Source: Aphanomyces cochlioides (Eukaryota > Oomycota > Saprolegniomycetes > Saprolegniales > Verrucalvaceae). From it: a stretch of DNA of 64,000 nt. Under the pieces are notes generated by a model that was not told the origin of the DNA, ran no database searches, and was given only the letters and a program-made list of their open reading frames with translations. The DNA lies in contig JAHQRK010000006.1 in assembly GCA_019828595.1 (NCBI GenBank), forward strand, positions 1,612,001 to 1,676,000, read 5' to 3'. Both the position numbers and the translations under genes were made by a program. Numbering within the stretch: position 1 is the first letter of the stretch; every line of letters starts with the position of its first letter. Shown piece by piece: positions 7,726-51,398 of this stretch.

Positions 7726-9131
7726 ATGACGAGCATATTGAGCGACTCGGATCGAAGCTCGGCGATCTCCCGCGTCGCGAAAAGCTCGGATCATTTGACT
7801 GTTGAAATGCTATTGAATCATGAAGAATGGGTGCCGGACCATGAGCGACATCGATGCTATGTCTGCACGCGCAACTTTTCCAACTTTCGACGAAAGCACC
7901 ACTGCCGTCGGGTACGTTTCGTCGATGTACGCATGACGGAATCTCATGTTTGAATGCGTAGTGTGGTGAAGTGGTCTGTCGGAGTTGTTTACTCAAGAAG
8001 ATGGCAAGACTACCGATGAAAGGATCCCTGGAAGTGAAAATTTGCATGACATGCATCCTCTCCGACACGCAATCACATGACAGTACCATCGGCACGATGC
8101 GAAGACGAGACAACTCCACAACTGCGTCGTCTCGATCGTCCCGATCTACCGACGCGATGACACATCTTCAATCGCCCACTGCAAATTCAACGGGGGAACG
8201 TGAAACCCTCACAATGGATGACCTTGAAGCAGATGAATACCCGCTAGACTACTCGTGGAATTACCCATGGCCGAAACCACCAGTCCTTCCAGATGATGCT
8301 GAACGTGTGGATGTATTGCGAAGCTACAACATCCTTGACACTGATGCCAAGGAAAAGTTTGATATCACATGCACTCTAGCCGCGAATGCCATCAAGTGTC
8401 CGATTGCCGTCGTGTCGTTCATCGATGAAGACCGGCAATGGTTCAAAGCAAATGTCGGCTTGGCTCAGTCTGAGATCCCACGAAACGTAAGCTTTTGTGC
8501 CCACGCTATCAAGTCCAAAGAGACTATGGTCGTGTGGAACACCATGCTTGACAAGCGATTCGTCAAGAACCCGCTCGTGACGGGCCCCGCCGCCATCCGA
8601 TTCTACGCTGGAGCGCCTATCGTTGCACCCTCTGGCCATGTCATTGGTACCGTTGCCGTCTTTGACAATCAACCCCGACAAAGCGTCGACATTGCAACGC
8701 TTGAGAAGTTGTCGACTGTCGTGATGAAACACCTAGAAGAGCGTCGAATGCCTCGAATGTCCGTTGCGCCGCCGCTGCCACCACATCCTGTAGCTCGCGA
8801 CGATTCAGAAATCGCTTCGCGACGGTACAGTCAGCCGCCTCCAAAGCCCGTCACACCGCCGGAGGCGTCTCAAATGGCCCCGCGGTCTAGTCTACATGAA
8901 GCTGTTGTTCCTGTGGCCCCGCTTTCCACCTCAGTCGCAGCACCGGCTGTTGTCGCCGTCGAAGGATCCAACATGGAAACCATGTTGATGAACCTCCTTT
9001 CCAAGACGACAGAAACACAACAACAGTTGGCAACACAGCAAGGCGCCATGTTCACAACGCTCGGCCAGCACTCGGTACAAATCGACAAGCTTGCCGATGC
9101 CGTCGCGCGGATCGAAGCCAAGCTGAAGTAG
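7726..9131 (+). CDS. FYVE-GAF protein A
   Basis: Exons 7726-7911 and 7962-9131 join in phase to 451 aa, with a 50-nt intron. The FYVE finger (residues about 35-93) has WVPD, the basic RRKHHCRR patch and eight cysteines (C44, C47, C60, C63, C68, C71, then CMTC). FYVE domains of this type bind PI3P on endosomes. A Ser/Thr-rich linker ends in YSWNYPWPKPP, followed by a GAF domain (about 175-330) with YNILDT, CPIAVVSFIDEDRQWFK, VSFCAHAI, NPLVTG and IRFYAGAPI. These strings are typical of bacterial GAF sensors. A Pro-rich region leads to a C-terminal amphipathic motif (METMLMNLLSKTTETQQQ to AVARIEAKL), probably a coiled coil. The ligand is unknown. It is convergent with RMI2, 26 bp away. Confidence 0.9.
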
Positions 9132-9157
9132 ACTATCGATAGATTTAATATAGAGCT

Positions 9158-9665
9158 TTACTCAATCTCGATCATGTGTCGAGGCATCCCGACGACTTGT
9201 GTCCAATACTCGATGACTTCGAGGAACCACAGTGTCTCTCGCTGCATGTCCTTCTCGCTCAGACGGATCACTTGATGGGCCTGAATCCAGGAGGGAGAAT
9301 GTCGCGGAGACGATCCGCCTGTGTTGCTGTTGTTGCCCATGACAGGTCCAATGATCATGACGTATTCGCCGACGACAACTTGAACGTGCGGGTTTGTCTT
9401 GATCAAATTCTGCATGTCAATCCAAACGACTCCCGTCCCGTCATCTATTGCAAAGCGAGGAGCTTCCACTTCGACGACGATTCCCTAGACACATCAACAT
9501 GACATTGTCAACTGCAGGGAGAGAGAAGATCCGTCGTACTTGAATCCACGCTCGAATGAGCTCCACGCCTCGATACATGTACTTGCTTCGACTCTCAGGA
9601 AGACTCTTCGCCTGGAAGAGCTGGTTCACAAAGAGCTTACGCGTCGCACTCGCTTGACTGTTCAT
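9158..9665 (-). CDS. RMI2: RMI2-like OB-fold protein
   Basis: Exons 9540-9665 and 9158-9484 join to 150 aa across a 55-nt GT-AG intron. After splicing, the motif WIQGIVVEVE is followed by DDGTGVVWIDM, GEYVMIIGPVM, IQAHQVIRL and WFLEVIEYW. These match in order the OB-fold of RMI2, the small subunit of the BLM/TOP3A/RMI dissolvasome that stabilises RMI1 and helps dissolve double Holliday junctions. The length is close to that of animal RMI2 (about 147 aa). An ATCCGGAT-like box (GTCCGGAT, 9719-9726) lies 54 bp upstream. The assignment comes from motif order alone; another small OB-fold protein is possible. Confidence 0.72.
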
Positions 9666-9718
9666 GGAAGCAGCGCGTTGGCGGCGGCAATTTCAAAATG
9701 TCCATCTGTCCTCAACCA

Positions 9719-9726
9719 GTCCGGAT
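9719..9726. promoter_or_regulatory. GTCCGGAT box before RMI2
   Basis: A one-mismatch version of ATCCGGAT, followed by A, lies 54-61 bp before the RMI2 ATG, at the same distance as the copies before ZPR1 and VPS34. It is weaker evidence than the exact pairs. Confidence 0.35.
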
Positions 9727-9798
9727 AGGCATTGCGAATCGTCATCGAGATGGCCGTCAAGGAGAAAGACTACCCTCCATGCAATGCAGAATCGACCG

Positions 9799-12700
9799 TC
9801 ATGCTTTCCCTTCTCTCATCGAAATGCAATAGTTCGATAGGGGAGCTGGCATACAAAGACAACACCGCTCTCTCGAAGATGGTGTGCAGCTCGACCGAGT
9901 TCAATCACATCGCCAAAACGAAGCGCGGTCGTTCTCTCCGCGGAACACTTGGCTCCATTCACATACGTGCCGTTGCGGCTGTCGAGATCTTGGAGGACAA
10001 CAATGCTACCGTCAAAGAAGGACTGTAAGTTGAACGGTGTCGATGCGATGGGTCTTACTCGTCGTTCTGGATTGAGAGACAAGCGTGGCGCTTGCTGACA
10101 ATTCCAGGATACGCCTTGCTATCGACGACGGCAGTGCAATGCTTGGCACTGCGACCTAGGACGATTGGGCTCTCTTTGTGGATCAGGACGACACGTCTGT
10201 CGTGGGTTTCGTCCAAGCGAACCAGCTGCATGGCAACTGCGATCGATTGCGTCGAGACATCGTGAGGGAGCGACTGTGGAGAAGCACCCGACCGTCGAAG
10301 TTGTTGTCCTCCTGGTGCTGGTGGAGGTTGTAGCACTGTTGGTGGCTTAATTCGAGGCAATCTTGCTAATAGCTCGAGGAAGGCCCGCTCCTTTGCAAGA
10401 CGTTCCTTGGCCGTCGCATGCTACGCCAGCATCTCAACAACACAGCCATCAGCATGACGTACGTACCTTGCGCATATGCTCATCAAACCATTTCTTGTTA
10501 TGGAAGCGGCGGCCTCCACACCGCGGCTCGAAGCATCGGTAGATCAAAAGATCTTCTTGGGGTTTGTCGAGATATGGCAATTTCATGGCACCGCGCGTTG
10601 CCACGTCATGGGATTGGGATTCCAGGAACGACCGCTTGGATTGACAGGCTCTCGTACTGCCACGTCATCAGATTGACTCTCCAAGTCGATTGAATGGGCT
10701 CTCGTGCTGCCACGTCATGAGTCGAACTTTCTGTCCAGTTCAGCCTTGGCACCGCTATCGATGAGGCTGATCTCACTGGCGTCTTGGCAACTTTGTCGAC
10801 GACGTCAACCCCCTCCTCGTTGGGCAAGTCTTGCTGCGTGGTTTCCAAGATGCCTTCAAGCTCCTCCGAGTTGCTCTGTGGCTCAGAGGTTGCAGAAGTT
10901 GTCGGCAATTTGGTAAGCCCGCGACGCCGGCGACGTTGTAGCTGAACAATGCCACGAGCCGCTGTCCGGCGTCGCAATCGTCGCGCGAATGCCGCTTGGG
11001 ATTCTTCAAATCGCTTCTCGGCTTTTATTGCTCGACGTCGCAGGAGGAAGACTAAGCACATGCGCTGGATGAGGATCACCGCCGTGAGCTGGACATCGTG
11101 ATGCCATTGACTTTGATACGACCGGAAGTCTTCCAGCGTCATCTGCAACTGGTCCAGGACATGGATTAGCTTGGGTCGCACCGTCGACACTTGGTATTCA
11201 AACATGGTTCTGTCGAGCGCCTGGACAAGCAAGTGGCTCCGCGACGACGTGTCGATACGAGCGCCACACCGAACGCATGTGAAAGCTACCGTGCCGAGCG
11301 AGTGAAACGAGGAGTGGCTCGCGTGAGAACAAGCGACGGCAACGTCGACGCGTTGAATGTCCGTCAAGCAAGCCTCAATCAAGCCCTGCGTCTTTAGAAC
11401 CCTACGGCAGGCGTCAAGTTGCTGGCGCTTGTGGAACAACGTACATCGCGCGGAAGCTACACAGCGCTGCAGCTCGTCGAAGGAGGCCACTTGGCCAGTG
11501 GAGACTCTTGCGCAAGGGATGAAAGTCCCGATGGCAAGTCGGTGGTCGTGCAATATGCCAAATGACATGACGGAACGCTTTATGCACTGCGAGACTCGAC
11601 TTGCGGCGGACGGAACCAACGCAAGACCGTCGTGTGGCCAATTCGGTGATGACTTGACGACGCAGCACCCGCACCCGCAGGTCCTTGGAGATGTCTCCGA
11701 GAGCCCGTCGACATGCGGCGAGATTTGTCATGAAAGGAGACTGACATGAGCTAAATTTAGTGCAAGTCGTGTTAGTTGCATCCTGTTGACGCAAAATATA
11801 GAGCTTCTAATGAATCAACTTGGTGGAAATTGATCGGCGCGGCTGGATCAACAACATGCGTGGGCTTTCGCAAGCTGTACTGACTTCCCACCGTCACGAC
11901 GACGGACACAGTCGACTCGGGCAACGCTTTCTTGAGAATGGACTTGGGTGGATGTTTCACCACTGGGAGTGTTTCCTCGTCAGGTTGTTGCTCAGAACGA
12001 CTTGAGCAGAGTTCGATGCGGTCGTCAATGGGATCGACAGAGGCGTTCAAGCTTCGAACTTTCACGTCCAAGTCGGCATCGAGCAGATCGACCCACTCGC
12101 CATCAGGAGCAATAACAGTACTGGGCATCCATTGAAAGATGGAAGTGCTGGCAGGTGTCGCAACTTCAGGACGACTCGGTGGCTTTTCATCAAAGCACTC
12201 GGGAATAGTGTCGTCGAGAGCTACCATGTCTCGCATCGCAGTACAAAGCTCATCAGCGTCCGAGGGAGCTAGTGGTTGTTGTTGAGCTTCGATAGCATTG
12301 TCGAAGCATTCAGCGATGGGAAAGCTTTCGTCCATGGCAGTGCAGAGTGCATTTGCGTCGCGGTTGCGGTATATCAAGGATGGATCATTGAGAGGCCGCA
12401 GCGGCAGAGTAAATTTGAGCTTTTCAGCCAGGTTGGGATCGTGGATGAACGTCTCGAGGGACTTGGCAACGGGTGGCTCAACTTCATTCCACTGTTGAAT
12501 GAACGAACGCCGTGGTGTTTGTGGCTTTCCAATGCGTTTTGTTGGCGTGTTTGCAGGGGATCGACTGAGAGGCGATGGAGACGGCAGCACCTTGAGGTCT
12601 TCTCTTGGCTTGATAATGCGCCGAAAGCCGCCTCCAACTCGTTTCAGAACCAGTTCCGGCTTGGACTCTTTCCTGGCGTTAGGAGGCGTGGGTTTGTGAA

Positions 12701-13556
12701 AGTGGACGGGGTCAGGTAATCTTGCTTCAGTCTCCTTGGTTCCTATGGCCTTGGGTAGCTCCTCGCTAGATGGAGGCGGCAGTGAAGATATGGCACTTTG
12801 AATAGCAGCGGGCTCTATGGCGGTGGAGTCGCTGGCCCCTTCAGAAGATAGCTTGGACCTCATAGCGCGGACTCGTAGCATGCTTTGTCTTCGACGAACA
12901 TGGGCTTGGATCTTGATTGCACTGCTGGACTGTGCAAAATTACAGACTTGACATCAGGAGTAACCCTACCTTGAGTTCATCCCTGGCTCGCTTTCGTGTC
13001 CGGAACTCTTTTTGCGCTGCGAACCGCCGAATGTGGACTTGAATAGATATTGCCGCCTGTCGCTCATGGTCAATGCGTTTACGAACCCGGTTGCCGCGAT
13101 GGACAGATTGAATCTTGATGACTGAAGCGCGCTCCAATGCTCGTTGTGACTCAGCTTTCACAGCCTGCTGCTCTTCCCAAGCTCGCTGTCGTCGAAGGTA
13201 CTCGCGGTGTTTTCGTTTCTCCTCCAGCTGAACTTTGGCTAAGAGTCGCTGTTCTTGGTACTCGGCCAGTTTCTTCATCCTCTCTTCCTCATCACGCTTC
13301 CTGTACAGAATATAAGGTCAAGCACTGTCCTCTTGACGAGACTCCACCGCTGCAATTCCCGTGCGAGCATCCGCTTGGCATTCTTGAGTGTGTGGTCTTG
13401 AAACATGTGCCCATGGAACGCCGTCGTGAATGTGTTGCATCTCGGTCGATGGAACATATTTTTGGCTCTGTACGAGTCAATCTGCACACCGACATTTCCT
13501 GGCGAAGCATAAATATCTGGGAGCCGCGTCGTCGGCGCGTCTTGATTCTGGCTCAT
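9799..13556 (-). CDS. Large protein with IQ motifs, C2H2 finger and FHA domain
   Basis: The start is ATG 13554-13556. Resolved exons are 13348-13556, 12970-13300 and from 12929 leftwards; at the other end, an exon ending at 10467, then 10059-10420, 9896-10005 and 9799-9845. Introns of 47, 40, 46, 53 and 50 nt are well supported. The middle (about 11820-10650) has at least two frame changes whose splice sites I could only guess, for example a 43-nt intron near 10640-10680. Domains in order are: a basic coiled region with IQ motifs (SVIKIQSVHRGNRVRKR, SAIKIQAHVRRRQ), a long acidic/Pro-rich linker, a helical region with a further IQ-like ILIQRMCLVFLLRRR, a C2H2 finger (YRCFEPRCGGRRFHNKKW then HMRKH, split by an intron), and a C-terminal FHA domain (VLGRS, VSKRHACL, DLDSRNGTYVNG, RFGDVIEL). 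FHA binds phosphothreonine and IQ binds calmodulin-like light chains. Two adjacent genes remain possible. Confidence 0.55.
10647..10718. repeat. 22-bp direct repeat inside the IQ/FHA gene
   Basis: GGCTCTCGTxCTGCCACGTCAT occurs at 10647-10668 and 10697-10718, 50 bp apart, with a decayed third copy around 10595-10610. On the minus strand each copy can read HDVAxRE, but in different frames relative to the flanks. The duplication may have created the intron or frame change here. Confidence 0.55.
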
Positions 13557-14423
13557 GCGTCTATTTCTGTCGTGTTTCGTCTAGCTGTTTCCATCTCCAT
13601 GTCGTTTCGTCTTGAAATCGTGACAAGCTTTCATCAGTTGTCTATCTCATTCTCTTGTAAGCGATAGCTTACTTCATAAGATAGCCACGACATCCATCGA
13701 TGTCTGGTGTGAAAGGTGCGAAGATGACACATGGTACACTGACTGGATGCAACCAACAACAGGAGCCAGCGCAGCCTCCTGTGATTGTTCTACGACAATG
13801 TTCCAGTCTACTCACGCCTTCATACAGGCTGTTCTCAGCCGGGTTGCTGAGTTTCCCAAGTGCACCCATGGCATTTCTTGGTGGCAGAGGGCGCGGCGTT
13901 GCATTGCAGATCCTCTCCCAGTGGCTTCACCATTCGATCGTTCATTCGGTACTATTTCGGTCAAAATATCTCCATTCACGTCTAATCTGACTGCGCTCCT
14001 CTGCGTTCATATTAGCTCGTCAGTGCATCCAAAGTCCAAAGATGATTCTGGAAACCATGCAGCGAGTGGTAATTTTTCTCAGGGCATTGGATTTCCATCA
14101 TGCCAATGGATTTTAGCCACGCGCCGATACTACGCACTGTAAATTACCTTAGAAGACTCTATCACTGTGGCCTTAAACACGAATGAGTGGTCTGTAGGGA
14201 GATCCCAGTCTGCTGGGATTGAGATATTTTGAGCGGAAAATGTGAACGAACTATTGAAATCTGGTGCATTCCCTGTGCTCTTCTCAATCGCGCGCGAACT
14301 ATTTTGACCGAAAATGGCACCATTGTCTAAATCCAATCGAAAATTTGATTGGTAGAAAATAGAAACGGCTGTAACTAATGTCTGAACCATCCTATCCTCA
14401 TTGCCACCAGAGACGCTAGTGAG
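13557..14423. other. Intergenic region, no gene recognised
   Basis: Head-to-head promoter space between the IQ/FHA gene (minus) and FYVE-GAF B (plus). A minus-strand open stretch at 14130-14400 with Ser/Asn-rich sequence (FNSSFTFSAQNISIPADW) has no identifiable start, partner exon or known domain. Confidence 0.3.
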
Positions 14424-16035
14424 ATGAAGCCAGCCGGTGCGTCCTCCGCTGACGGACACAGTGCACAAGGCGCAGCGATGAAGCAACCCAAGGCGTCTTC
14501 GATCACCGCCTCATCGTCCACCGGCGGCAAAGATTTGATTATCGTGCCGCCCACGCAAGTGATTCTCACGCAAAAAGAGCTTGTCAGCCCCGACTTGTGG
14601 GTCGATAAACAGTCGCGGGGGAAATGCTACGTGTGTAGCCGACCTTTCCACGCTCTCTTGCGAACAAAGCACAACTGCCGCAAGGTACGTCTGCCTCGAT
14701 ACGATCGATTGATTCCATCGAGTATATGTAGTGCGGTGAAGTCGTCTGTTCGAAATGCCGCGTTGCACAAATTTTGCACATGCCATCCGTGCCGGCGAAA
14801 GAGTACGCTTCGATCCAGATATGTCTTGTGTGCAACCACAGCATCTTGGGTGAATCTTCCACCGACGAGAAGCTCAATCCCCGAAATGCTTCGTTGGGAA
14901 GTGCCCTCTCGAATGAATCGGGCACAGATGCCGCAGAGACTGAAACGTCCGATGGAATGATCCCATGTCCGTATGAACTTGACTGGAATTGGGTTCACCC
15001 TTGGCCCAAGCCTCCTGCTCTTCCTGCTGCCGTGGAAGCTCAGCAAATGGAAGTCCTCGCCAGCCTCAACATTCTTGACACGCCCCGCGAAGATGCATTT
15101 GACCGGATCGCCTTGGCTGCTCGCAAGTTTACCACCAGCTCTTGCAAAGTTGCCTGTGTGAGCTTCATGGACCTCCAAAAGCAACGCCAATGGTTCAAAG
15201 GAAGTTGTGGTCTCGCCCAAGAAGGTTTGGCATCTTTTTGCGTCGTCTTGGTGACTTCTGTGAAATAGAAATGCCACGCATTGTGTCGTTCTGCACCCAC
15301 ACAATCTACCTCAACCAGCCCGTCATCGTCTTGGACGCCAGAATTGATGAACGCTTCTGCCTCAATCCTCTTGTGACAGGTTCAGGTCAATTCCGCTTTT
15401 ATGCGAGTGTGCCGATCACTGTGGACAGCGTTTGTATCGGTACCATCTTTGTCCTCGACGCAGAAACGCGTGCCGAGAGCGACGTTGACATCTCGAGACT
15501 GGTCAAACTGTCGGTCGTCGTGAGCAAATTGCTTGTTGAGCGCCGAGAGGCCAAGCTGCACCCATCTCAGCAATCAACAACCTCCTCGCGAAAGCCGCAG
15601 CAACCTCCCTCTGCTGCTGAGGATAAACCCATGCGAAGCTATTCCATGGCGATGGAGCTCCCACCAGCACTGTCGAGACACCAGTCCACGGACGAAATCT
15701 TGCCCTCCAAGGCGGACTTTCCACCGCAACCTCCAACGCAAGCACCTCCAAAGGAACCCGTGGCTGAACCTCAGCCCCAACCGCTGCCTGATAAGAGCAC
15801 GACTGTCGCGTTGCAAGATCCTCAAGCCAAGGTCGACGCGTCTGGCAACAAGATGGAAGCGATGCTCATGAACCTGTTGAGTCAAACGACGTTGACGCAG
15901 CAACAGATTGCCAACCAACAAGGAGCTATGCACGCGCAGATCGGCCAACACAGTACGCAGCTCAACAAGCTTGCCGAAGCCGTCGCGCGCATGGAAGCCA
16001 AACTTTCAGAAAAGAAGACTAGTCCCGACGCCTGA
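14424..16035 (+). CDS. FYVE-GAF protein B
   Basis: Exons 14424-14684, 14732-15224 and 15269-16035 join to 506 aa; introns are 47 and 44 nt. The FYVE finger has WVDK rather than WxxD, CYVC, TKHNCRK, then CGEVVCSKC and CLVC. The usual second His of HHCR is Asn, so PI3P affinity may be reduced. The linker carries DWNWVHPWPKPP. The GAF domain (LNILDTPREDAF, QRQWFKGSCGL, IVSFCTHTI, NPLVTG, FRFYASVPI) is interrupted by the second intron just before MPRIVSFC, an intron absent from the paralogues. A Pro/Gln-rich region and the C-terminal motif MEAMLMNLLSQTTLTQQQ to AVARMEAKL follow. The domain order matches gene A. The role is inferred as an endosomal PI3P reader with a small-molecule or redox sensor domain. 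Confidence 0.9.
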
Positions 16036-16128
16036 ACTCGGCGTGTCATTATTTAAGCCCCACTTGCCGTGTGTGGTCGATCGTGGACTCCAGCGCTTGC
16101 TTAAGAATAGATAGATGCTCCAAAAACT

Positions 16129-16605
16129 TTAGCTAACGACGGGGGATGCTTTGGCACTTAGAAACTCTGACAACGACTTCACCTGGGCCACGTGCTCGGT
16201 ATTGGTCGCGTCTTTCGCGTCGACCGAATTAAGCGCAATCGCCGCCGCCGACTTTACGCTCACCAGAGCGCCCAGTTCTTGAGAGGAAGCGTTGAGGACG
16301 CAAATTGGGATCTCAAACGTCTCGGCCATGGTCAAGACGTGGTGCAGGACGTTCTGACTCGACGGGTCGAGAGCAACGATCAAGACCCGCGCTCGTTTAC
16401 GCTCGATGGATCGTGTAACAGCATTGACACCGATGGAGACAGCTTGAAGAGGCTTCAACGATGCCTGGAGCGGCACGAGCTCCAGACGGATGCGGTCTAG
16501 GACGATCTGCTTGTCTTCGTCGTCCAGTGCTTTATATGCCAGCGGACGACTCGCATCCTTGTCGCGAGTCTTCTCGTGGATGGCTCGCTGCCGTAATGTT
16601 GTCAT
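16129..16605 (-). CDS. L7Ae-family RNA-binding protein (Rpp38/NHP2-like)
   Basis: 158 aa, intronless. ATG 16603-16605 is chosen over an upstream in-frame TTG. The core (about residues 50-120) has IGVNAVTRSIERKRARVLIV, then HHVLTMAETFEIPICVLN, SSQELGALVSVKSAAAIAL, the L7Ae/Gadd45 fold that binds kink-turn RNA. The spacing of GVNAVTR, EIPICVL and SxELGALxSxKS resembles Rpp38/Pop3 of RNase P/MRP more than NHP2, but I cannot settle this by eye. It is divergently paired with SHQ1, which assembles H/ACA RNPs containing the L7Ae protein NHP2, so either assignment suits an RNA-processing locus. The 57-bp intergenic space contains ATTGG and CCAAT. Confidence 0.7.
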   Translation of the reverse strand: MTTLRQRAIHEKTRDKDASRPLAYKALDDEDKQIVLDRIRLELVPLQASLKPLQAVSIGVNAVTRSIERKRARVLIVALDPSSQNVLHHVLTMAETFEIPICVLNASSQELGALVSVKSAAAIALNSVDAKDATNTEHVAQVKSLSEFLSAKASPVVS

Positions 16606-16662
16606 GTTGATTGGAGCCAATGAACACAGGAGTGGATAAAATTAAACCAATTGACCGAAAGC

Positions 16663-18987: not shown

Positions 18988-19905
18988 ATGAGACCAGACT
19001 ACCGTGCCGTCTCGCGGCCGTCGTCGTTTCGACGCAGCACCATCCAAGACGACGACGACTTGATGAGCGAGTCGCTCTCGAAAGTGTCGACCGAACCGAC
19101 GGTATTAGACCTGAAACATCCAGACGACTGGGTCCGTGCGTCCGAACGATCGCATTGCCACTCATGCGGCGCGGAATTTGGTATTTTTCGACCGAAGAAC
19201 CATTGCCGAAAGGTATGCCCGACACACGTAGCGCATTGCATTGTGATTATGATCTGTAGTGCGGAGAAGTCGTTTGTGCCGAGTGTGTGGTGAAGAAGCC
19301 CATTGTGCTCCCTATGATCGGCCAGACGACAACGAAATTCTGTGTTACTTGTATCGAAGGCTTTGGAAACACATGGGATCGAACCATGCTCGTGACAGGA
19401 GTCTTAGCCCCATCTCCAGCCCCGTCGTCGTCCAGCTCGTCGGGGACGCGATCACAGGTTAGCCAACCTTCGAACAGACCGCCCAAGAACTTGCGAAGTC
19501 AGAGCCGCGGGAGAAGTTATCTGAGTTCAAGCCAAAGCCATGAGACCAGTGGACATCTCGCAAGTAGCCGGAGCCAAGAAGGCGAGGCTAATGCGAACAA
19601 CCCCGCATGCGCCCCGCTGAGGTTTGAAGACTTGATACACCCCGACAAATGGGTGCCAAACTCCCACCGGAAGCACTGCGTAGCATGCAACAACGCCTTT
19701 GGCCTCTTTCGACACAAGCATCATTGTCGTGTGGTACGCATGTCGTTACTAGACAGTCGTTCATATTCCTCTCATCTAGTGCGGCGACCTTGTATGTAAA
19801 GACTGCACGATGATGCGCCAAGTCGTACTGCCGGCCGTGGGCCTCTCGGACGTGCGGGTGTGTGAGCCATGCATCGTGGCCAGCGCTGCGAGAGTAGCTC
19901 CATGA
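18988..19905 (+). CDS. Tandem double-FYVE protein C (no GAF)
   Basis: Exons 18988-19212, 19260-19733 and 19780-19905 join to 274 aa; introns are 47 and 46 nt. Finger 1 has DDWVRASERSHCHSC, RPKNHCRK, CGEVVCAEC and FCVTC. A Ser/Arg-rich linker leads to finger 2 (DKWVPNSHRKHCVAC, RHKHHCRV, CGDLVCKDC, VCEPC). Each finger is cut by an intron at exactly the same place, before the CG of the second cysteine pair. The protein ends shortly after finger 2, so it lacks the GAF and coiled-coil parts of its paralogues. Tandem FYVE domains are expected to bind PI3P membranes with higher avidity. It probably arose by fusion of two duplicated FYVE ends. Confidence 0.88.
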
Positions 19906-23688: not shown

Positions 23689-23730
23689 ATACTGTCGATT
23701 CATGTACGATGGTCTTACAGAAACACGACT

Positions 23731-27622: not shown

Positions 27623-27624
27623 AT

Positions 27625-36415: not shown

Positions 36416-36418
36416 TGG

Positions 36419-40536: not shown

Positions 40537-42101
40537 CAGCTGAAGCTATGATTTCTCAATGACACGCGATCTCAGTTGCTGCACTCGTGTCCAAAATAAC
40601 TCATAAGATTTGTATTCATGGCTTGAAGTCGTAGTTGTACAATCAGCCATAGGTTTGAGGCAAGTTATCCGAACATCCGGACAATTTTGAATACTTCCTC
40701 TGTGCCATATTACTGGCCCCCAAAAATTCATATTTTGTCCAAGGTCGACGTTTCATACCTGGTTTGAAAGAGCAGAAAAATCTGAACCAACCTTCTATTG
40801 AGTACAAAGGGCAATGAGCTCATTTTGCACGTCTTATTCATCTCCACTTTTTGACCTTCAGTATAAAAATATGAAATCATTAATATTTCTTTTAAAATAC
40901 AGGGACCTGAAAGCAGCATCATGGTGCCATAAATATCATATGTTCGCACTTAATGGTGCGATTTATGGCCAATTAAAGTCATTTATTTCGACCATTAGCC
41001 AATCAAATAGAAATGCTGCCAGTATTTTGATAAAAGTGGATTTTCCTTTTGTTTACAGTAATATGAAACAGAGGTAGTACAACATGACAGCCGAGTTTTC
41101 ATTTGTTTTCATTTATTTGGGTACGGGGTGTTAGGTAAGGCAGAGCCTTGAATTGGCGAGCTCAATTGGACGAAATACGATTCGGATGGTACTGGTATTG
41201 GAATGATTTCAAGCGGATTTGCATGTTTCTCATTTCAATGGGGAAAAGGTGTGTATCAAACTTTCATTCCTATTCTTCATTGTGTGTTCTTGAACTTTGA
41301 CAACGTTTGGTGCAGTCGAAACAGTGTCAGAAGTTTCTGATCTTGTAATATACATGTATTGCTATGTTTAGCCAATATACGTATAGTATGTCAATCCACC
41401 TTCTTTCAAACCTCCCAATCGTTACTTTTTATACTCTCATAACATATTTCATTGGTGGATTTGTCAACAACCCGTCGCTTTCTCCACGTCATTGAAATGC
41501 GCCATCCCGCGCGAGATTGTTCATCCTTGGGGAGGAGACCTTTCACCGGACCAACATGCAGAGGAATCCTCCTCTGTTCAACTTGTTTGTAGGTCTGACA
41601 AGAATATTCCGAGATTGCTCAACAACACAATTGTATCCTCCTTGTATGTACCACGGGAATAGGGTTTTTGATTACGAACGCTTGTAGTTTGCCTTCTTTT
41701 GGCTGAAAACCCATCGTGTTGTCATATCCGGACATGGCGTGTCCTAATGTTTGGCGCTTGCATGTCGTATTTCAATGGTCAAAAGATAGGATTTTCTACC
41801 AATGAAATGCATCCATACACACTTAATCGGTCCGCACTAAGTCGCGACGGTAGCTCCAAGAATCCACTCGCCGCGGTGAGGCTTTCCACAGCACCGGTTG
41901 GAGCGCAAAGGACTCTGCGGCAAAGATTTGTCCACCGGCACGCTTTTCCACAGCGTATAAACCTTGCGGGAAGTCATTGTCCAACTGTTGAGGCTGTAAT
42001 CTCCCGAAGCCTTGTGATTGGGCATATATACCTGAATTTTCGCTAGCCAGCTCTGGACTTTCAAGTCACTTCTCCTGTGGTGTGGTGGTCGCCGGTACTG
42101 A
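40537..42101. other. Right flank of the transposon island, no gene recognised
   Basis: AT-rich to about 41450, then approaching the composition of the gene-dense region. No known domain was found. The last 100-200 bp before 42102 probably hold the promoter of FYVE-GAF D. Confidence 0.35.
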
Positions 42102-43748
42102 ATGAGCCAGTCGTCCGTGAACATGGCAGCCAAATCGATGAGTCAACCCACCCTAGTGCGAGGTCCGAGTGTCGAAATCAACGCCCGCGCCATCGACCAT
42201 GCGACGAAGGATAAAATCATCATGATCAACAATTTCAAGCATCAAGACGATTGGATTTCCAACTCGGAACGCAATCGATGCCACATTTGCACAAAGAATT
42301 TTGGCGCATTCCGTCGGAAACACCATTGCCGTGTGGTACGAACTCATCTTCTTAGAGCGCTTGCTTATAATTCTGACTAGTGCGGCGAAATTGTATGTGG
42401 GTCATGCACACTAAAGAAGCAAGTGATGCTGCCCATGGTTGGGCAAACAGAAGCGAAAGTCTGCGTCACATGCGTTCTTGAACACTGCAACAAAGCAATT
42501 GAACCTGGTATGGCTTTCGAAGCCGCGATGAATGCATCTGTGCCCTCGCCGGCATCATTTTCAGTTCCATCCAGCGTTAGCTCGCGTGATGGCCGTGGTG
42601 GTCGCAGTGATATGAGCAGGAACAATACGCACCTTGTGCATTCTCCAGATGTGATGAGCGCAATGGATCCTGACTACGGAGAAGAATTTGACTACCCACT
42701 GGACTTCGATTGGGAGCATCCATGGCCCAAGCCACCAATTGTTGCTGACGAGAAGCAGCGACTCGAAGCGCTCCGAGCGTTTGATATCCTTGACACACCA
42801 CAAGAAGACGTGTTTGACATTATCTGTGACCTTGTCAGCAAGTCGCTCAACTGCCCCATTGCCGCAGTCTCATTTATTGACCATGATCGTCAATGGTTTA
42901 AGGCCAGTGTCGGCCTTATCCAGGAGGAAATTCCCCGAAATGTCAGCTTCTGCGCCCACGTGCTGCACACGAAGCAATCCATTGTCGTCCCCGACACAAT
43001 GCAGGACAAGCGGTTCGATCGCAATCCGCTCGTCACGGGGCGTGCTGGCATTCGATTTTACGCCGCCTCGCCCATTATCGTCCCTGGCTCGAACGTCGTC
43101 CTTGGTACGATCTTTGTCTTTGACAACCATCCTCGGCCGCGTGATCAGTTTGATATGGCGACTCTGGAAAGATTGGCCGGCGTGGCCATGAAAAACCTTG
43201 AAGACCGTCGAGCGACTTACGCTAGCCAGCCTTCCTACGACCAGAGACCGTCCGGCGCAACTGACCGATCATCAGTCGTCACAGCACTGTCCCAGGAAGG
43301 TTACCAGGTGCAGAGCCCGAAACCACAGTCAAGTGCCCATTCCGCCAATGGCCCCACAACTCCTCAATCACGAACTCCGACTACTTCAAATGTGCCTCCG
43401 GCTTCTCCAACTTCGTCTGCGCTTTCATCCACATCAGCTACTGCACCATCTGCAGTCTCAGCCGCCGCTCGTCAGACTCCATCCCCTCAGCCGACGACTG
43501 CAGTGACGACCACATCTCCTGGGGCTCCTGTTTCTACCGAAGTCGCAGCGATGCCCAAGATGGAGACGATGCTCATGGATCTTTTGAGCAAGACGACTGT
43601 GACTCAGCAACAGTTAGCCAAGCAGCAAGGATCTATGTATGCGACAATAGCTGGCCACAGCCAACAGATCGACAAGTTAGCAGAGGCAGTGGCAAGGATG
43701 GAAGCCAAACTTGTCGGCGACCAGAAGCCAAGCGACTCGAATTCATAA
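42102..43748 (+). CDS. FYVE-GAF protein D
   Basis: Exons 42102-42335 and 42381-43748 join to 533 aa across a 45-nt intron; a second in-frame ATG at 42123 could be the start. The FYVE finger has DDWISNSERNRCHIC, RRKHHCRV, CGEIVCGSC and VCVTC. The linker ends YPLDFDWEHPWPKPP. The GAF domain has LEALRAFDILDTPQEDVFD, CPIAAVSFIDHDRQWFK, GLIQEEIPRNVSFCAHVL, NPLVTG and IRFYAASPI, the closest of all copies to bacterial GAF sequences. A long Ser/Thr/Pro-rich stretch separates it from the C-terminal METMLMDLLSKTTVTQQQ to AVARMEAKL motif. It is the first gene after the transposon island, in the same orientation as A-C. Confidence 0.92.
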
Positions 43749-44747
43749 AGACATTTAATCCAACGCCCTCTAGATCTATACACACTCCCACTGTAGACGC
43801 ATTTCGCATACAGAAAAAGGACTGAGGCCAGATAGTCCAAGTGGACTTGCATGATTTGAAGAAATCCATCGACGGCAAAGTTGACTTGCCACGCTCTGAG
43901 ATGGTCAAACTGCAGACACATTAGCCGCACTCACCCAATCTCTCTCCACATGACATAGAATTCGACCAAATATACAAAAAAGTCAAAAAATCCAAAACAA
44001 ATTCTCTGAATTTCAATATTATTTTCAGTATATTTTGGTGAATTTGTTAAAAACATTGTGAAATTTGCAAAAATTGAAGTGGATTCAAATTGGTGAGATA
44101 TGATTGACTTCTAGACCATGGTGAGACACTGCGGTATTGTGAAATCATGGCACCGAGATGGTAAAATATATAAAACGCCTCCAAGAGACGGACCAGTTGG
44201 ACTTTACCCTCAAAAGAGCTCACCCACAATCCATCTAGCATACAACTGGACAGGCTGAGGAATTCGCACGCTGCCATCAAAATCAAGTGGATGCGCTTGG
44301 AACTTTGTCATCTTGCAAGTCAAGAGGGTCATATCGAGCGCCAAGACATATAGGAACAACTATACTGTGCGTTACAATGGTCGAAAGAGCAGTAGAAAAT
44401 ATCCCACCTGATTGTCGATATGGTGAGAAAATTATGTTCCAGTCAGTATGAAATACTGTAGGTAGTGCGTGGATCATGTTGTAATGAGCGGAGCTGGTCG
44501 GAAGTCGATGGACTTTCGCGCTTGGTTTCGCGTCGACTGGAAAGCTTCCGCGCTGTTCTCTTGAGGATTTCCAGCGTCGTGGAGAGGAAGAGCACGAGGA
44601 TTTGACGCGGTGGAGATATCGAGATCGTGTTGGGTTTCTCGGTGTGAGTCACACGCTGGTGTGCAGTCTGGATTAATGGAAGAAACCCAGATGGGAGCGG
44701 CGAATCCCACAGATCGGCATTTTCAAAAGAAGACACGATAGGTGTTG
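43749..44747. other. Intergenic region, possible minus-strand exons
   Basis: On the minus strand, stretches such as FQAHPLDFDGSVRIPQPVQL (around 44210-44290) and FAVDGFLQIMQVHLDYLASV (around 43800-43890) look protein-like and could be exons of one unrecognised gene between D and E. No consistent start, phase or domain could be established. Confidence 0.3.
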
Positions 44748-46058
44748 ATGGTAGACGAAGCCGACTTCCTCCACGCGGCGCCAGAGTGTCTCCTCCCGCC
44801 CGAAGCATGGGTGAACAAGAAGGAACGCTTCCGATGTTATGTGTGTGCGCAGAAGTTTAACAACTTGTTCCGGCGACGACACCACTGCCGTCTGGTACGA
44901 CGATGCCGGCCTTGATCCATGTGGTAGCGCTTCTTGAACTTGTAGTGCGGCGAGCTCTTCTGCAAGCAGTGCATTGTTCACAAGTTCGTCTCAATCGCGG
45001 GGAGAGAGAAAGTGTCCGTCAAGGTATGTACGCCGTGTGCGTATGAAGATGTCCACAGAGCAAAACGACATTCGCCGCTCTATCGATCGTCGAGACGACT
45101 GCTCCAAATGTCGGACGAAGAGGCCGCGAGAGAACTCCTCAATTCACCCGTCACGAGCGCGGCCGACATGACTTTTGACGACACGCATGGCGATCTCGAC
45201 TTTGAGGAATCGTTCTACCAAGGGCGATTTGAATGTCCGCCGCCGCCGTTCGCGCCAGACGAAGTTGAACGTCTCACGGCCGTCAACGACCTTCAAATTC
45301 TCAACACGCCGCCTGACAAAACGTTCAACGTCATCTGCGAACTCGCCGCGACTTCTCTCCACTGCCCCATGGCTGTCATTAGCTTCATGGACCATGAGCG
45401 CCAGTGGTTCAAGGCCAAGATTGGCTGGTCCAAGAATTATTTACTCCGCCGCGTGTCGTTCTGCGCCCACGCCATCTTGACCACGGCGCCGACCGTTGTC
45501 CTGGACACCCGCGCAGATCCACGCTTTGTAAAGAATCCGTTGGTCGTGGACTACGGCGTGCGATTTTACGCGTCTGTGCCGCTTGTGACGAGTTTGAACT
45601 GGGTTGTGGGGACCCTCGCTGTCTTTGACTATCAGGCCCATCCCGCGTGCGATGTGAGTTCGTTGATTCCTCTTGCCCGCGGCATTATGAAGCAAATCGA
45701 AGAAGAACGAACAATGGAGCGAGTACAGCGTCGTCGCCAGGCTGCCTCCTTTGACGAACGAAGTCTATCTCCTCCGTCCGCGTCCTTCATGCGGCCACAT
45801 CTATCTTCTCGTGGAAATGTAGAGCCATTGCCCGAGAACGACACGATCCAGACACAAGCGCAACTCGCTGCGAATGGCAACATGGAAACAATTCTCTTCG
45901 ACCTGCTGCACAAGACAAGTGAGACACAACAGCAACTCGCGACGCAACAAGGCACAATGTTTGCAACGCTTGGACACCACTCGAAACAGATCGGCAAGCT
46001 CACAGAAGCGGTGGCGCGCATGGAGTCGAAATTGTCCTCCCCCGTCGCGAAAGCATGA
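44748..46058 (+). CDS. FYVE-GAF protein E
   Basis: Exons 44748-44894 and 44946-46058 join to 419 aa; the intron is 51 nt. The FYVE finger has EAWVNKKERFRCYVC, LFRRRHHCRL, CGELFCKQC and VCTPC; the WxxD Asp is Asn. The GAF domain has LQILNTPPDKTF, CPMAVISFMDHERQWFK, RVSFCAHAI, NPLVV and VRFYASVPL. The C-terminal motif is METILFDLLHKTSETQQQ to AVARMESKL. The linker lacks the PWPKPP box of A, B and D. The 3' flank carries a large nested inverted repeat (46171-46363). E and F share the RRRHHCRL and CGELFCKQC spelling and are the most similar pair in the finger. Confidence 0.9.
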
Positions 46059-46170
46059 TGTCTCCTCTTTGTATCATGAAAATGTTGAATGGAAGAATGA
46101 CGTGGCGTATTGACATGAGCAGTTCGTGGCGGTGTCGCATTGTACGCTGGACTTCTCGCCGTCTTCGTTG

Positions 46171-46363
46171 CACCCACACGGTGTGGGTGAGCGAGCATAC
46201 AGTGTGTGCTCGTCCTGGGATGATAGATGGTGTGGCCCACACCATCTATCATGTCGCTGGTAAGCGCGTTTGTCAAGCGGTTGTGTGCTCGTTCATGTTG
46301 CCCACACCATCTATCATCCCAGGACGAGCACACAACCGCTTGACAAACGCGCTTACCAGCGAC
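46171..46363. repeat. Nested perfect inverted repeats behind FYVE-GAF E
   Basis: Four overlapping palindromes lie within 193 bp: a 9-bp-arm hairpin (46171-46179/46181-46189); 32 bp at 46204-46235 matched exactly by its complement at 46302-46333; 15-bp arms at 46221-46235/46237-46251; and 39 bp at 46253-46291 matched exactly at 46325-46363. The 32- and 39-bp right arms share CGAGCACAC (46325-46333). The structure starts 113 bp after the stop codon of E. From 46364 to 46972 I see no other feature. Confidence 0.9.
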
Positions 46364-46972
46364 AAACGACGAGAGTGACAGAAAAGCGACAAGGAAGCGC
46401 CAGCCTTGCTCTGGTCGTTGATATCTTGCCGCTTGACTCAACGAGCACGTAGTTGTTGGAGTCAGTGTGGACATATCATCGTCTTCCCCTTCAGCGACAT
46501 ACATCTCCTGAACAGCGAGAGAACATCAACTACCTGAAAAGAACCCGCGAGTCTTGAGCAATGCTAGCAAAGCATGACGTGGAGATCCATGACGCTGCGA
46601 GTTGATAGAGATGGATACATCTCGTTTTCTCTCCGTGGGTTCTCAGGGTCATCAACACTTTCTTACTGTGGAACTGCATATTGAGGTCGGGGGGACTCAT
46701 CAACTGAGTGTGTGGATAGGAATCTTCTCAGCAATGAACGGTGAACAAGGCGGCCAACGAAACAAGTTGAGCGGGAGATGATCCATTACACATGTGACGA
46801 TGGAAAGGCAGGTCGGCGAGAGAGGATGAGATGATCAACGTTTACTAACACATGCCCCAAGCTTTTCCGTGTCCATGACAAGCTTTCCATCCAATGGGTT
46901 CATCGAGAACGAGTCGCATGTTGAGTTTCGGGGGTGATTTGGGAATTCGCCGCATTCATTCGACAACAAACC

Positions 46973-48233
46973 ATGCTGAGACTGGAATCCGCGAGCGACG
47001 AAGGCCCACGGAGTATTCGCCTCGAGGACATTTTGTCCCCCGCACGGTGGGCATGTAAGAAAGAACGCCTGACGTGCGGCGACTGTCGCCTCAAGTTTAG
47101 CAACTTGTTCCGCAGGCGGCACCACTGTCGACTGGTACGTTTCCTACTGTGTACTGATCAAGCTGACGTGGCGACGACAGTGTGGGGAACTCTTTTGCAA
47201 GCAATGTGTTCTCCTCAGGGAGCTTCAAGTTCCAGCGCAGGGCAAACAGTTTGTCAAAGTGTGCAAGACGTGCTTTCTCGATGACGCCAGGACTGCCAAC
47301 TCGTCGTCGTCCTGTGAAAGCCCCAAGCGACCGCACAGTGTCAAGTCCATGTGGGCAATCTTCTCGAACGACATCGCTGCAATCTCGACTCCAACCTTCG
47401 ACTACGAGAGACGCTCGGTGCAGAATTTGACGACCAGGACTCCACCAAGTGTCGATCGCAACAGCGAGAAAGGCCGTCTGGACGTCCTCCGCGCTTACCA
47501 TATCGACTACACAGCGCCCGACGACACACTCCAGTCCATCTGCATGAAAGCAGCACAGGCGTTGAAGTGTCCGATTGCCTACGTCGCCTTCATGGAGGAA
47601 GACACTCTGAGGATTAAGGCTTCCGTCGGGTTCAACGTTGTCTCTATCCCGCGAGACCAATCTGTCACCGCTCACGTCGTTCAGACCCGCAAGCCTTTGA
47701 TCGTGACCGACACGTTCATCGACGGACGCTTCCACGACACCGCTCTCGTGATCGACCATGCAATTCGCTTCTATGCGGGCGTTCCCATTGCCAACAAGAA
47801 CGGATGGGTCCTCGGCGCTTTGGTTGTTCTCGACTACGAGCAACATGTCGAGGAAATCGACGTCCGACAGCTCACCTCCTTGGCGAAAGCGACGATGGAC
47901 AGCCTGCGCAAGCCACGCTCGATCTCTCGTCGAAGGACAATATCCCATGACAGCTCCAAGCCGAGGGGCTCCGTGCTCCTGCTCGACGCTGACTTTGTCG
48001 TCGACACCACCGATCGCAACTCTGAAGTTGGCCAACGATTGACGTCCAGCGACCGCGGTGGTCTCTCCGAGTGGACGCTCATGGACCTCTTGACCCAGTC
48101 GACCAACACGCAACGATCTCTAGCGCAGCACAACAGTCATCTCGCGACGACGCTTGGAACGCACTCGGAGAAACTCGACCAGCTCACGCAGGCGATCTCT
48201 CGCATGGAGTCCAAGCTACGAGATGCCGCATGA
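46973..48233 (+). CDS. FYVE-GAF protein F
   Basis: Exons 46973-47134 and 47181-48233 join to 404 aa; the intron is 46 nt. The FYVE finger has ARWACKKERLTCGDC, LFRRRHHCRL, CGELFCKQC and VCKTC. The WxxD motif is lost (WACK), so PI3P specificity is uncertain. The GAF domain is the most diverged of the family: LRAYHIDYTAPDDTL, CPIAYVAFMEEDTLRIKASVG, IPRDQSVTAHVV, IRFYAGVPI, with the usual RQWFK and SFCAH boxes replaced. The C-terminal motif is LMDLLTQSTNTQRSL to AISRMESKL. It is convergent with the ERMP1-like gene (159 bp gap). Confidence 0.88.
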
Positions 48234-48392
48234 CGGGCGTCCTCTCCATCTCCATGCTCTTATTTGAATGTAACTTATTTGTCCTTGAAGCCGCGCTACT
48301 GCGTCCTTCGAACCACCGAAGAAACGATCAACATGCAATAAGTTTAGTGCCGCAGGCTACGTGTAGAGCGCGCTCGTGTCGGGAGAGGAACG

Positions 48393-50252
48393 TCACAGAC
48401 ATGGAGCAATGGCAGCAACGAGGAGCGCGCAGTAGACGCCGCAAATGACGCACATGACGTCGGGGCGAGGATCACGCTGGGCAAACCAAGTCACGAGGAG
48501 ATGCAACGACGGAGCGAAGAGCGCAGGGAGTAAGACCAAGTGGAGCGCGCGAAAGGCCGCGATGGACTGTACGACGATGGCGAGATCGACGGCAAAGTGG
48601 AATGAGATGCCCATGTAGACAGCCATGGCACCTCCGATGGCTGCCCACATGGTCCACGCGCTTGGCGATGCTTTCGGCTTGGTCGCAATGTTCCCGTCGA
48701 GGGAGATCGTCGAGTAAGAAGTTGTCGCTGTCACAAGAACGAGTGGCGTCGACTCGTCCATCAACCCGCTCGGGCTCTTGGAAACCGCCGCCAAGGCCAT
48801 CACGCCCATCGCCAAGACTGAAAATGGCAGCACGGCCACTGGGATCAAGTACAGCGCTGGAAAGTCGGCGAGGAAAGCGAGACTCAACATGGCTCCGCTC
48901 GTCGCCCCCGCCGTGACAAAGCGAGCCCAGACGTGGTTCGGTGGCGCCGCACCGACGGGAAGGCATTGATGTCGCCGCCACTTCTCGGCAGCCTTCGTGA
49001 CGCCGACAACGCTCCCAATCACAACCAGCGGCACGACCGCCCACGACAGTCCCAAGTTGTTGGTGACAGCAATTGTTAGCCAAAGCGGGACGAGCGCGAC
49101 GACGCCTCCAAGCCAAGAGTAAGCCAAGGCACGAGCGAGGAACGGCCAGTCGTGACGCATGGACGCGACGGCGTCGTAGACTTTCTTGTTGGGCTGGAAC
49201 GTCGACGCAAAGACCATGAGCACGCCTCCAGCAGCCAAGAAGGTGAAGAGGACGAGCGTCGAGCGCATATCGAGTGACAGCGCAAAGCTCCATCGGCCCA
49301 CCAAGTCAAAGAAGACAGGTTGACTGGCGTGCGCATGGAGTCGCGTCAAGAACGGCATGTCGAGGAGCGACTTGGTAAACGCCACGACGTTGCTTCCAGC
49401 CAACTGCACGCGGTCGGCCGACAATTTCTCCGACGTGTTCTGGACAAATGCGATCTCAACGCCGGGGACGTTTGCTTCCTGGAACGTGTCGTAATCGGTC
49501 GAGTCGCGGGAGAGTGCGGCAAAGCCCACGATGTTGTTCATCTCCGGCCGAGGAGCTTCGATGGCGTATTGGGATGCAAGTTGGATGTCCGTAGCTCGAG
49601 ATAGGATCGCACGGTCTCCTCCGCCGCCTCCAAGATGCACAAATGCTTGCGTCATGTAGTGGTGTGTCAAGTTTGAGCGGACCGACCACTTGGGGCTGCA
49701 CGGAGCGTCCGCTCGGCCGTTGTTGAAGACGGCGATCAGTGTATTCCGCGGTTTCGACGGCGTGGTCACGACTGCACGCAAGATGTCCAAGATAATGCCA
49801 ACGGGAGCGCCGAACAAACCTGGTTGGGAGTCGTACTGGGTGGACAAGACGACAGAGGATGCAAACATCCCTGGGACTTTGGCAACGATCTGCGCGTTGC
49901 TCGCGAGTTCAATGTTGCAAGATCCAACGGGAGACAGCGACAGATTGCCAAGATCATGACGGGGGGTTTGGAGGAACAAGCGATTGCTCCCGTTGAGCGT
50001 CTGCAGATCTTGGAGCTTGTCGTGGATATACTTGTAGATGAGTTCGTCGGCGTCCGTGCCATTGATCAACGTTGCAGACTCGATGAATTGCCCCGTGCCA
50101 AACACTTCAAGGCCCGAAATCCCGTGATGCCCCGCTGCTTGAGGAATGCTCTGTGCTGGAGGCGCTTGGGAACGCCACATGACGTTGATCCATTGGACAA
50201 AGCACGCCAGGAGAGCCATGAAGAGCCATGGAAGGTAGTAAGGCACGCGCAT
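48393..50252 (-). CDS. ERMP1-like multipass membrane protein, M28 fold without zinc ligands
   Basis: 619 aa, intronless, from ATG 50250-50252 (a TTG lies 15 nt upstream). An N-terminal signal anchor (YYLPWLFMALLACFVQW) is followed by a lumenal domain of about 300 residues collinear with M28 peptidases of the ERMP1 type: SSVVLSTQYDSQPG, APVGIILDILRAV, NTLIAVFNNGRAD, FVHLGGGGGDRAIL, FQEANVPGVEIAFV. The zinc ligands are not conserved: HxD is QYD, the DD and EE pairs are absent (NNGRAD). The C-terminal half has about eight membrane helices. It probably resides in the ER as a pseudoenzyme. GAA1 of GPI transamidase shares this architecture and is an alternative. Confidence 0.65.
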   Translation of the reverse strand: MRVPYYLPWLFMALLACFVQWINVMWRSQAPPAQSIPQAAGHHGISGLEVFGTGQFIESATLINGTDADELIYKYIHDKLQDLQTLNGSNRLFLQTPRHDLGNLSLSPVGSCNIELASNAQIVAKVPGMFASSVVLSTQYDSQPGLFGAPVGIILDILRAVVTTPSKPRNTLIAVFNNGRADAPCSPKWSVRSNLTHHYMTQAFVHLGGGGGDRAILSRATDIQLASQYAIEAPRPEMNNIVGFAALSRDSTDYDTFQEANVPGVEIAFVQNTSEKLSADRVQLAGSNVVAFTKSLLDMPFLTRLHAHASQPVFFDLVGRWSFALSLDMRSTLVLFTFLAAGGVLMVFASTFQPNKKVYDAVASMRHDWPFLARALAYSWLGGVVALVPLWLTIAVTNNLGLSWAVVPLVVIGSVVGVTKAAEKWRRHQCLPVGAAPPNHVWARFVTAGATSGAMLSLAFLADFPALYLIPVAVLPFSVLAMGVMALAAVSKSPSGLMDESTPLVLVTATTSYSTISLDGNIATKPKASPSAWTMWAAIGGAMAVYMGISFHFAVDLAIVVQSIAAFRALHLVLLPALFAPSLHLLVTWFAQRDPRPDVMCVICGVYCALLVAAIAPCL

Positions 50253-50456
50253 GACGATGGACACCAAAGATTCAACATGACGATCTTTCCTTCGCAGCCA
50301 TTTTATCTTGATTAAAGTATACTATAGTGTCTGCTCCGTTGGATTTGTACGGTAGAACGGTAGGACGGCGGCGGCGGCAGTTCTGGGCGCACAACATGAT
50401 GGACCAAGTGCAGAGGGTTAAATTAAAGCAACATTGAAAAGAGTCTAGAGGTGGTG

Positions 50457-51398
50457 TCATACGACGCAATGCATGCGTTCCTTTGTGTCTCGGAGGAGCG
50501 TCGCGGTTTGCATCGACATGGTCAAGAGTGCTTCCATCATGCCCTCGGCCGATTCACTCACATTGGAGCTCGTCGTCGAGTCGGCGGCATCGCGGAAGCT
50601 GCTGGCTGAATACATGCTGCTCGTGCTTGTCGTTGAGGCTGAGTTGCCGCGGTGTTGACGCAACCGACTCGCTGAGGGCCGCTTGTTGGGATGGTGGTGT
50701 TGAGACTCGATTGCGGTGTTTTGCATCACCATCGCGGCGGTCGATGCAATATTTTGCAAGTCCTTGATGACATCTGCAGGCGGCATGTAGCCACTGGGAT
50801 TTGCGACTTCAAGAGTTCCAATGCACGATGTGGCGAGCATGAGCGGGATTCGAATGAACGGCATCTCGTCGTGGTATGCTTCTTGGACCAGCGTCGGGTC
50901 GGCTGTGAGCGTGACGAGACCAGCTTCCACGCGGGTCATCTGTGGCGGGAGATCATCCACGTTATACGCCGTGACATAAAAGACATCACGTGTGCCAATG
51001 AGTTGAATGAGACCCATGGACGAGCCGATGACGGCGAGCGCTTGCTCGAGCAGTAAAAAGTACGTCGCGTCGGTTTGGAAGCGCGGCGCAAAGACTGACA
51101 GATCTGCGAGGGTCGGCGGTGGTTTCGCGCGGTGGTATGTGTGAAATACTGGATCAAGCGGCTTGGGCGAGCCAAAGTCGCTTGACGCGGACGAGTGTGG
51201 GTGGCCTGCGTTTGGCGGCTGATGAAACTTGGCGTCCATGAAGCACGCGAGGCACACGCGTCTTGGTTTCTTCAGTTTGACTCCCTGGACGATGTTGGCC
51301 TTTGCAGAGCACGCAGAGCAGACGAGCTTGGAGCAGTATCTGCACGTGTGGGTCCACCGGAAGGCCGTGAACGACTTGGCGCACACGGAGCAGCCCAT
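50457..51398 (-). CDS. Divergent FYVE-like/GAF-like protein G
   Basis: 313 aa from ATG 51396-51398; an upstream exon is possible, since CTCACAG precedes the start. The N-terminal finger has GCSVCAKSF, THTCRYC, LVCSAC and VCLAC with eight cysteines, but no WxxD and no RKHHCR, so it is FYVE-related without the canonical PI3P pocket. It also lacks the family intron. The middle (about residues 110-230) resembles a GAF fold (LLLEQALAVIGSSMGLIQL, MPFIRIPLMLATSCIGTLEV) without the bacterial-type signature boxes. A Ser-rich region and a short C-terminal helix (MMEALLTMSMQTATLL) echo the family's C-terminal motif. It is either an ancient relative or a domain-order convergence. Confidence 0.75.
   Translation of the reverse strand: MGCSVCAKSFTAFRWTHTCRYCSKLVCSACSAKANIVQGVKLKKPRRVCLACFMDAKFHQPPNAGHPHSSASSDFGSPKPLDPVFHTYHRAKPPPTLADLSVFAPRFQTDATYFLLLEQALAVIGSSMGLIQLIGTRDVFYVTAYNVDDLPPQMTRVEAGLVTLTADPTLVQEAYHDEMPFIRIPLMLATSCIGTLEVANPSGYMPPADVIKDLQNIASTAAMVMQNTAIESQHHHPNKRPSASRLRQHRGNSASTTSTSSMYSASSFRDAADSTTSSNVSESAEGMMEALLTMSMQTATLLRDTKERMHCVV

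Follow-up and report, generated by a model that had tools for sequence, protein, structure and literature searches.

Tandem FYVE-GAF proteins with a shared C-terminal helix in the oomycete Aphanomyces cochlioides: candidate membrane-anchored adaptors with an orphan sensor domain

The nearest described relative of the sensor domain treated here is the GAF of the bacterial protein Dcsbis, whose NKFDE motif is degenerate, which binds neither cyclic AMP nor cyclic GMP, and which forms the dimer of the protein (PMC4937426; papers are cited throughout by PubMed Central accession). The second domain in question, the FYVE finger, occurs in Phytophthora sojae in an expanded set of 191 proteins (PMC10381902). 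Here, a window of 64,000 nucleotides from Aphanomyces cochlioides (positions 1612001-1676000 of contig C56, in a 76.2 Mb genome) is analysed, which contains what is probably an old tandem cluster of proteins joining a FYVE finger, a GAF and a C-terminal helix. With a probability of about one half, we read these proteins as helix-assembled adaptors that would be anchored to phosphatidylinositol 3-phosphate (PI3P) and would carry a GAF sensor for an orphan ligand, a reading that draws on their domain order, the type of their GAF, the conservation of the GAF signature and of the helix, and the sharing of the helix with other proteins. The fusion may already appear in the 2011 survey of oomycete domain combinations by Seidl et al. 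In the available portions of the literature consulted, including PMC3019232, PMC2375034, PMC8780586 and PMC2837644, no description of oomycete FYVE-GAF proteins was found.

The cluster comprises the following genes, with coordinates given as positions in the window:
Gene A: exons 7726-7911 and 7962-9131, plus strand, 451 amino acids; FYVE finger, PWPKPP linker, GAF, Pro/Ser region, C-terminal helix.
Gene B: exons 14424-14684, 14732-15224 and 15269-16035, plus strand, 506 amino acids; altered FYVE finger, PWPKPP linker, GAF, helix.
Gene C: exons 18988-19212, 19260-19733 and 19780-19905, plus strand, 274 amino acids; two FYVE fingers.
Gene D: exons 42102-42335 and 42381-43748, plus strand, 533 amino acids; FYVE finger (WISN), PWPKPP linker, top-scoring GAF, helix.
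Gene E: exons 44748-44894 and 44946-46058, plus strand, 419 amino acids; FYVE finger (WVNK), GAF, helix.
Gene F: exons 46973-47134 and 47181-48233, plus strand, 404 amino acids; FYVE finger (WACK), diverged GAF, diverged helix.
Gene G: 50457..51398, minus strand, 313 amino acids, intronless model; degenerate FYVE finger (RWTHTCR), remainder without assigned fold.

A preliminary description of this DNA had proposed a five-gene family with the order FYVE finger, linker, GAF, Pro/Ser stretch and 55-residue C-terminal helix, and this order is present in A, B, D, E and F. The Pfam domain search that it had suggested finds FYVE above cut-off in all seven genes and GAF (PF01590, cut-off 22.4 bits) in those same five (A 45.0, B 32.1, D 60.3, E 33.7 and F 45.5 bits), and none of 1400 shuffled copies of the seven proteins reaches E 0.01 with three local profiles. 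Finer details of the description apply to part of the family: the PWPKPP linker is found in three of the five genes (A, B and D) and is missing from E and F, and the ending AVARMEAKL is exact in B and D and varied in A (AVARIEAKL), E (AVARMESKL) and F (AISRMESKL). The introns of A to F are of the GT-AG type and 44-51 bases long, the spliced frames contain no stops, and a phase-0 intron at the same codon, directly before a CG pair of the finger, splits each of the seven fingers found in A to F. Gene C is, as described, a relative with two FYVE fingers, in which Pfam and local-profile scans detect neither a GAF nor the C-terminal helix. The finger of G lacks the shared intron, which places G further from the family than C. 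A GAF-like fold had also been attributed to G; the finger stands, being above the Pfam cut-off, and membership in the FYVE-GAF family finds no support, with no Pfam GAF at E 0.1, an hhalign probability of 0.2% against GAF, a score of 2.8 bits with the family GAF profile that is equalled by 23 of 2000 shuffled bodies (1417 sequences in all gave a score), and a fold model whose predicted local distance difference test score of 35 makes it useless for fold assignment.

The GAF is of the Dcsbis type. Both the orthologue of A in A. euteiches and gene D match the Dcsbis structure 4zmu, the nearest one solved, in fold and sequence, and the 26 shared columns of the signature RQWFK / FCxH / NP / IRFYA are kept to 25 in A, 25 in B, 26 in D, 24 in E and 18 in F, which has lost RQWF, FC and NP. 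Conservation across the oomycete rows is 96-100% at seven residues (R66, C71, D89, R91, F92, N95 and P96), which, judged from the GAF fold, would lie near the roof of the pocket. If the findings on Dcsbis carry over, the ligand is likely hydrophobic and not a cyclic nucleotide (PMC4937426). The GAF could instead be a structural dimerisation domain without ligand, making the proteins plain PI3P-anchored scaffolds, as the dimer formed by the Dcsbis GAF (PMC4937426) and the survival of F as an open full-length gene despite the loss of many signature residues would allow; we regard this as possible but rather unlikely, since a domain serving dimerisation alone should have drifted at the seven residues that are so strongly kept. 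The cysteine of FCAH, present in 48 of 50 oomycete P rows and in 57 of 57 bacterial rows, might also be read as a redox switch, with the family serving chiefly oxidative-stress and mitophagy pathways, as would the P. sojae proteins PsFP1 and PsAF5. PsAF5 is required for tolerance to hydrogen peroxide (PMC10912746) and PsFP1 is linked with the oxidative stress response (PMC8233823), but the two differ from the family in architecture (ANK, FYVE and TPR in PsAF5, FYVE and PX in PsFP1), and a lone conserved cysteine is also explained by packing or ligand contact, so that this role appears very doubtful.

A strong branch of a GAF tree divides the FYVE-GAF sensors from 57 bacterial GAFs. The tree was rooted at the midpoint without outgroup and omits five of 135 GAF rows as very diverged as well as 23 of 80 bacterial loci, the cutting pattern requiring RQWFK and RFYA in one frame; two of 132 sequences lacked a full GAF, and the search was limited to lengths that exclude large eukaryotic proteins with this GAF. 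The breadth of this GAF in bacteria suggests that it was transferred from bacteria to oomycetes. Elsewhere in the genome, two genes (L012 and L017) have the order FYVE-GAF-FYVE, with the second finger behind the GAF, and another (L013) has two GAFs, with no finger found in its frame.

The fusion of a lipid reader with a sensor fold, central to the preliminary description, holds by Pfam, and among the FYVE-GAF proteins of the window the complete textbook PI3P signature is found only in A, which keeps all three motifs (WVPD, RRKHHCR and KIC). The WxxD motif is replaced by WVDK in B, WISN in D, WVNK in E and WACK in F; the fingers of C read WVRA and WVPN, and WxxD is absent from the G model. Among relatives it is kept in 59 of 72 fingers readable by a fixed pattern, which passed over others, including the first finger of C and the finger of G. 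The R(R/K)HHCR motif is intact in A and D (RRKHHCR) and in E and F (RRRHHCR), altered in B (RTKHNCR), where the second histidine of HHC is also changed, and in C (RPKNHCR and RHKHHCR), and lost in G (RWTHTCR). The loss of the aspartate in D probably took place within Aphanomyces, because the Saprolegnia parasitica counterpart (P0004) reads WVSD. Of these proteins, A is therefore the strongest candidate for conventional binding of PI3P; the remaining copies might recognise different lipids, show weaker binding or depend on partners.

The fusion had been put forward as specific to oomycetes, and it was not seen outside them: among the best 120 of the 222 homologues of D that passed (7991 candidates were scored), all 76 that name an organism, by hand count, belong to Saprolegniales, Albugo, Pythium-like genera, Phytophthora or downy mildews. 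With local profiles, the FYVE-GAF-helix order is found in 86 of 249 sequences (the seven window proteins and 242 fetched ones, including 118 GAF-only proteins from a GAF search); in another 31, some of which are cut gene models, GAF and helix occur with no FYVE. The genome itself has about 30 loci with both domains by hand tally, some of them included only through a finger at most 1.5 kb away on the same strand, and on contig C56 the family extends beyond the window: a single gene precedes it by about 2 kb, and two more follow about 36-39 kb past its end.

Gene A is 95.8% identical over 451 amino acids to P0041 of A. euteiches, D is 97% identical over its full length to P0001 of the same species, and E is 58% identical to P0099 of A. 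stellatus. The best matches of B are SPRG_19004 of S. parasitica and SDRG_07950 of S. diclina (45% over 471 and 491 columns). By best match, the S. parasitica counterparts are SPRG_19004 for B, also joined to it on a branch of 99, and SPRG_19006 for D, and both apparently lie on one contig with SPRG_19001 and SPRG_19002. Because the counterparts of B and D are apparently co-located there, the tandem arrangement is probably older than the split between Aphanomyces and Saprolegnia. A birth-and-death family of largely dispensable copies, with C and G as decaying remnants, would account for the domains missing from C and G, the divergence of F and the transposon-like open reading frames between C and D (read by eye). 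All seven frames are open, however, A and D match A. euteiches proteins along their whole length at 96-97% identity, and B has counterparts in Saprolegnia, which makes such a history quite unlikely.

No other block is as well conserved among A, B, D and E as the C-terminal helix (57-74%; 38-44% for F), in which the polar residues T414, Q415, Q417 and Q422 are invariant (P0041 numbering; 46-row alignment A2). Its helical nature, as proposed earlier, agrees with the model of the A. euteiches orthologue of A, in which a single helix is predicted at 398-450 with a block-mean confidence of 92-96 over 401-450. No Pfam entry matches it above cut-off; a likeness to UL13 came from one PDB match (E 0.0018) in which no stretch passed alone, and was taken as chance. 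A search of the genome with the helix gave 13 places, 11 of them in genes with FYVE and GAF. The helix also ends a FYVE-less GAF protein (L131), which is the local member of a type starting near YGYxLxFxWxHPWPRAP that forms a strong branch of its own with four rows. A second search added a weak place at L132; at this locus (2093-4585) FYVE, GAF and helix pieces are spread across several frames around a long unassigned middle. One of the 13 places, C4:1229425, falls in a gene with neither FYVE nor GAF:
Gene L120: 404-3086 (C4:1226904-1229586); PH (25.4 bits against a cut-off of 25.1), phosphatidylinositol 3-kinase (PI3K)-accessory and PI3/PI4-kinase-like domains.

At the end of this gene the helix occurs twice, once in part (23.4 bits) and once in full (76.0 bits), and the kinase-like part is joined to these copies via a 41-base in-frame intron at 2787-2827, the likeliest of ten fitting splice choices. 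Its kinase-like domain is probably inactive, since the catalytic loop, whose residues have known roles in kinases, is degenerate: it reads GLGNQHYDSI, against GIGDRHNDNI in five paralogue frames and GIGDRHSDNI in one (the pattern read L120 and these six frames, and nothing in L128, L129 and L130). In the ten other loci scanned alongside L120 no helix was found within the fetched stretches. On the same contig, C4:549001-681000 shows a local expansion of PH/PI3K-like genes (P0244 also has RBD and C2 matches), in the midst of which, at 590-618 kb, are five GAF genes; a finger is clearly matched in four of these. Mixed oligomers are plausible, as the helix is common to FYVE-GAF, FYVE-less GAF and one PI3K-like protein, and its position at the end of a lipid-kinase-like protein hints at a shared, unstudied signalling complex. 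A further-reaching idea, which seems to us unlikely, is that the coil serves to assemble an oomycete signalling complex in which FYVE-GAF sensors, a FYVE-less GAF protein and a dead PH/PI3K-like subunit pair with one another, with the GAF ligand tuning assembly on PI3P membranes.

In the adaptor reading favoured here, the proteins would be dimeric or oligomeric on PI3P membranes of the endosome or autophagosome, with the C-terminal coiled coil joining the chains, so that at least two FYVE fingers per assembly would give firm membrane binding in A and weaker or altered binding in B, D, E and F. The Dcsbis-type GAF would bind a small, probably hydrophobic molecule, and the ligand-bound state might shift chain pairing or the choice of partners, which would be found among the helix-bearing proteins. 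Several points weigh against this. Four of the five FYVE-GAF fingers of the window lack the WxxD aspartate, and their PI3P binding may be weak or changed; in F, the GAF signature and the helix are both eroded. The helix is modelled as a single chain, a protein-database search with the helix alone returned eight proteins, all FYVE-GAF and none a kinase, and for the PI3K-like carrier there is a single gene model from a single genome. Family proteins have no known output domain, and the ligand, membrane and oligomer roles are inferred from sequence. The fusion brings an orphan sensor domain widespread in bacteria into what would be a eukaryotic membrane-identity system, in a family found across oomycetes and, by hand tally, at some 30 loci of this genome. 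Whether bacteria and oomycetes have a ligand in common can be tested directly thanks to the conserved GAF signature, and the shared coil points to concrete candidates for binding partners.

Next to the cluster lies a gene for a lipid kinase:
VPS34, class III PI3K: 53000..55832, minus strand; adjoins G on the same strand, ends not spliced or modelled.

PI3K_C2, PI3Ka and kinase domains are present, and the gene is nearest to class III, with VPS34 chains scoring up to 234 bits and the best other PI3K class 116. It is the only class III PI3K found in the genome (489 bits against 115.5 for the next), the class of enzymes that produces PI3P. A meaningful linkage between VPS34 and the cluster was considered and set aside, as the placement control is not significant: one of 21 clusters of GAF relatives lies within 10 kb of a PI-kinase-like match (P 0.18) and two of 21 within 40 kb (P 0.11). 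Elsewhere in the window, an ankyrin-repeat open reading frame is situated at 5471-6316, immediately upstream of A, and the stretch at 20000-44000, which parts C from D, is of low GC content and has several transposase-like open reading frames (read by eye).

Compared with known eukaryotic systems, the family shares the FYVE finger with HRS and RUFY1 (49.9 and 44.4 bits for gene D) and the combination of a coiled coil with FYVE with EEA1. To our knowledge none of the three has a GAF, no match to the family helix was seen in them, and they differ from B, D, E and F, in which WxxD is altered. PsFP1 (FYVE, PX), PsAF5 (ANK, FYVE, TPR) and PsZFPK1 (FYVE, kinase) of P. sojae are likewise oomycete FYVE proteins, set apart by their partner domains as described in the available text. 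Within the same genome, tandem GAF relatives at C1:2772922-2816434 (L016 and L019-L021) were scanned with Pfam in two members (L016 594-1946 and L019 521-1996), both of which prove to be genes for a GAF with a class III nucleotide cyclase, a layout that looks bacterial though it is found in an oomycete. The GAF of these genes is related to the same set, but it is joined to a cyclase, and L016, their single row retained in the tree, groups with bacteria and not with FYVE-GAF. Dcsbis (PA2771, PDB 4zmu), a GAF-GGDEF diguanylate cyclase, is alike in GAF fold and signature, with 38% identity over about 165 residues; it is bacterial and has the GGDEF cyclase as its output, whereas the family has a FYVE finger and a predicted coiled coil.
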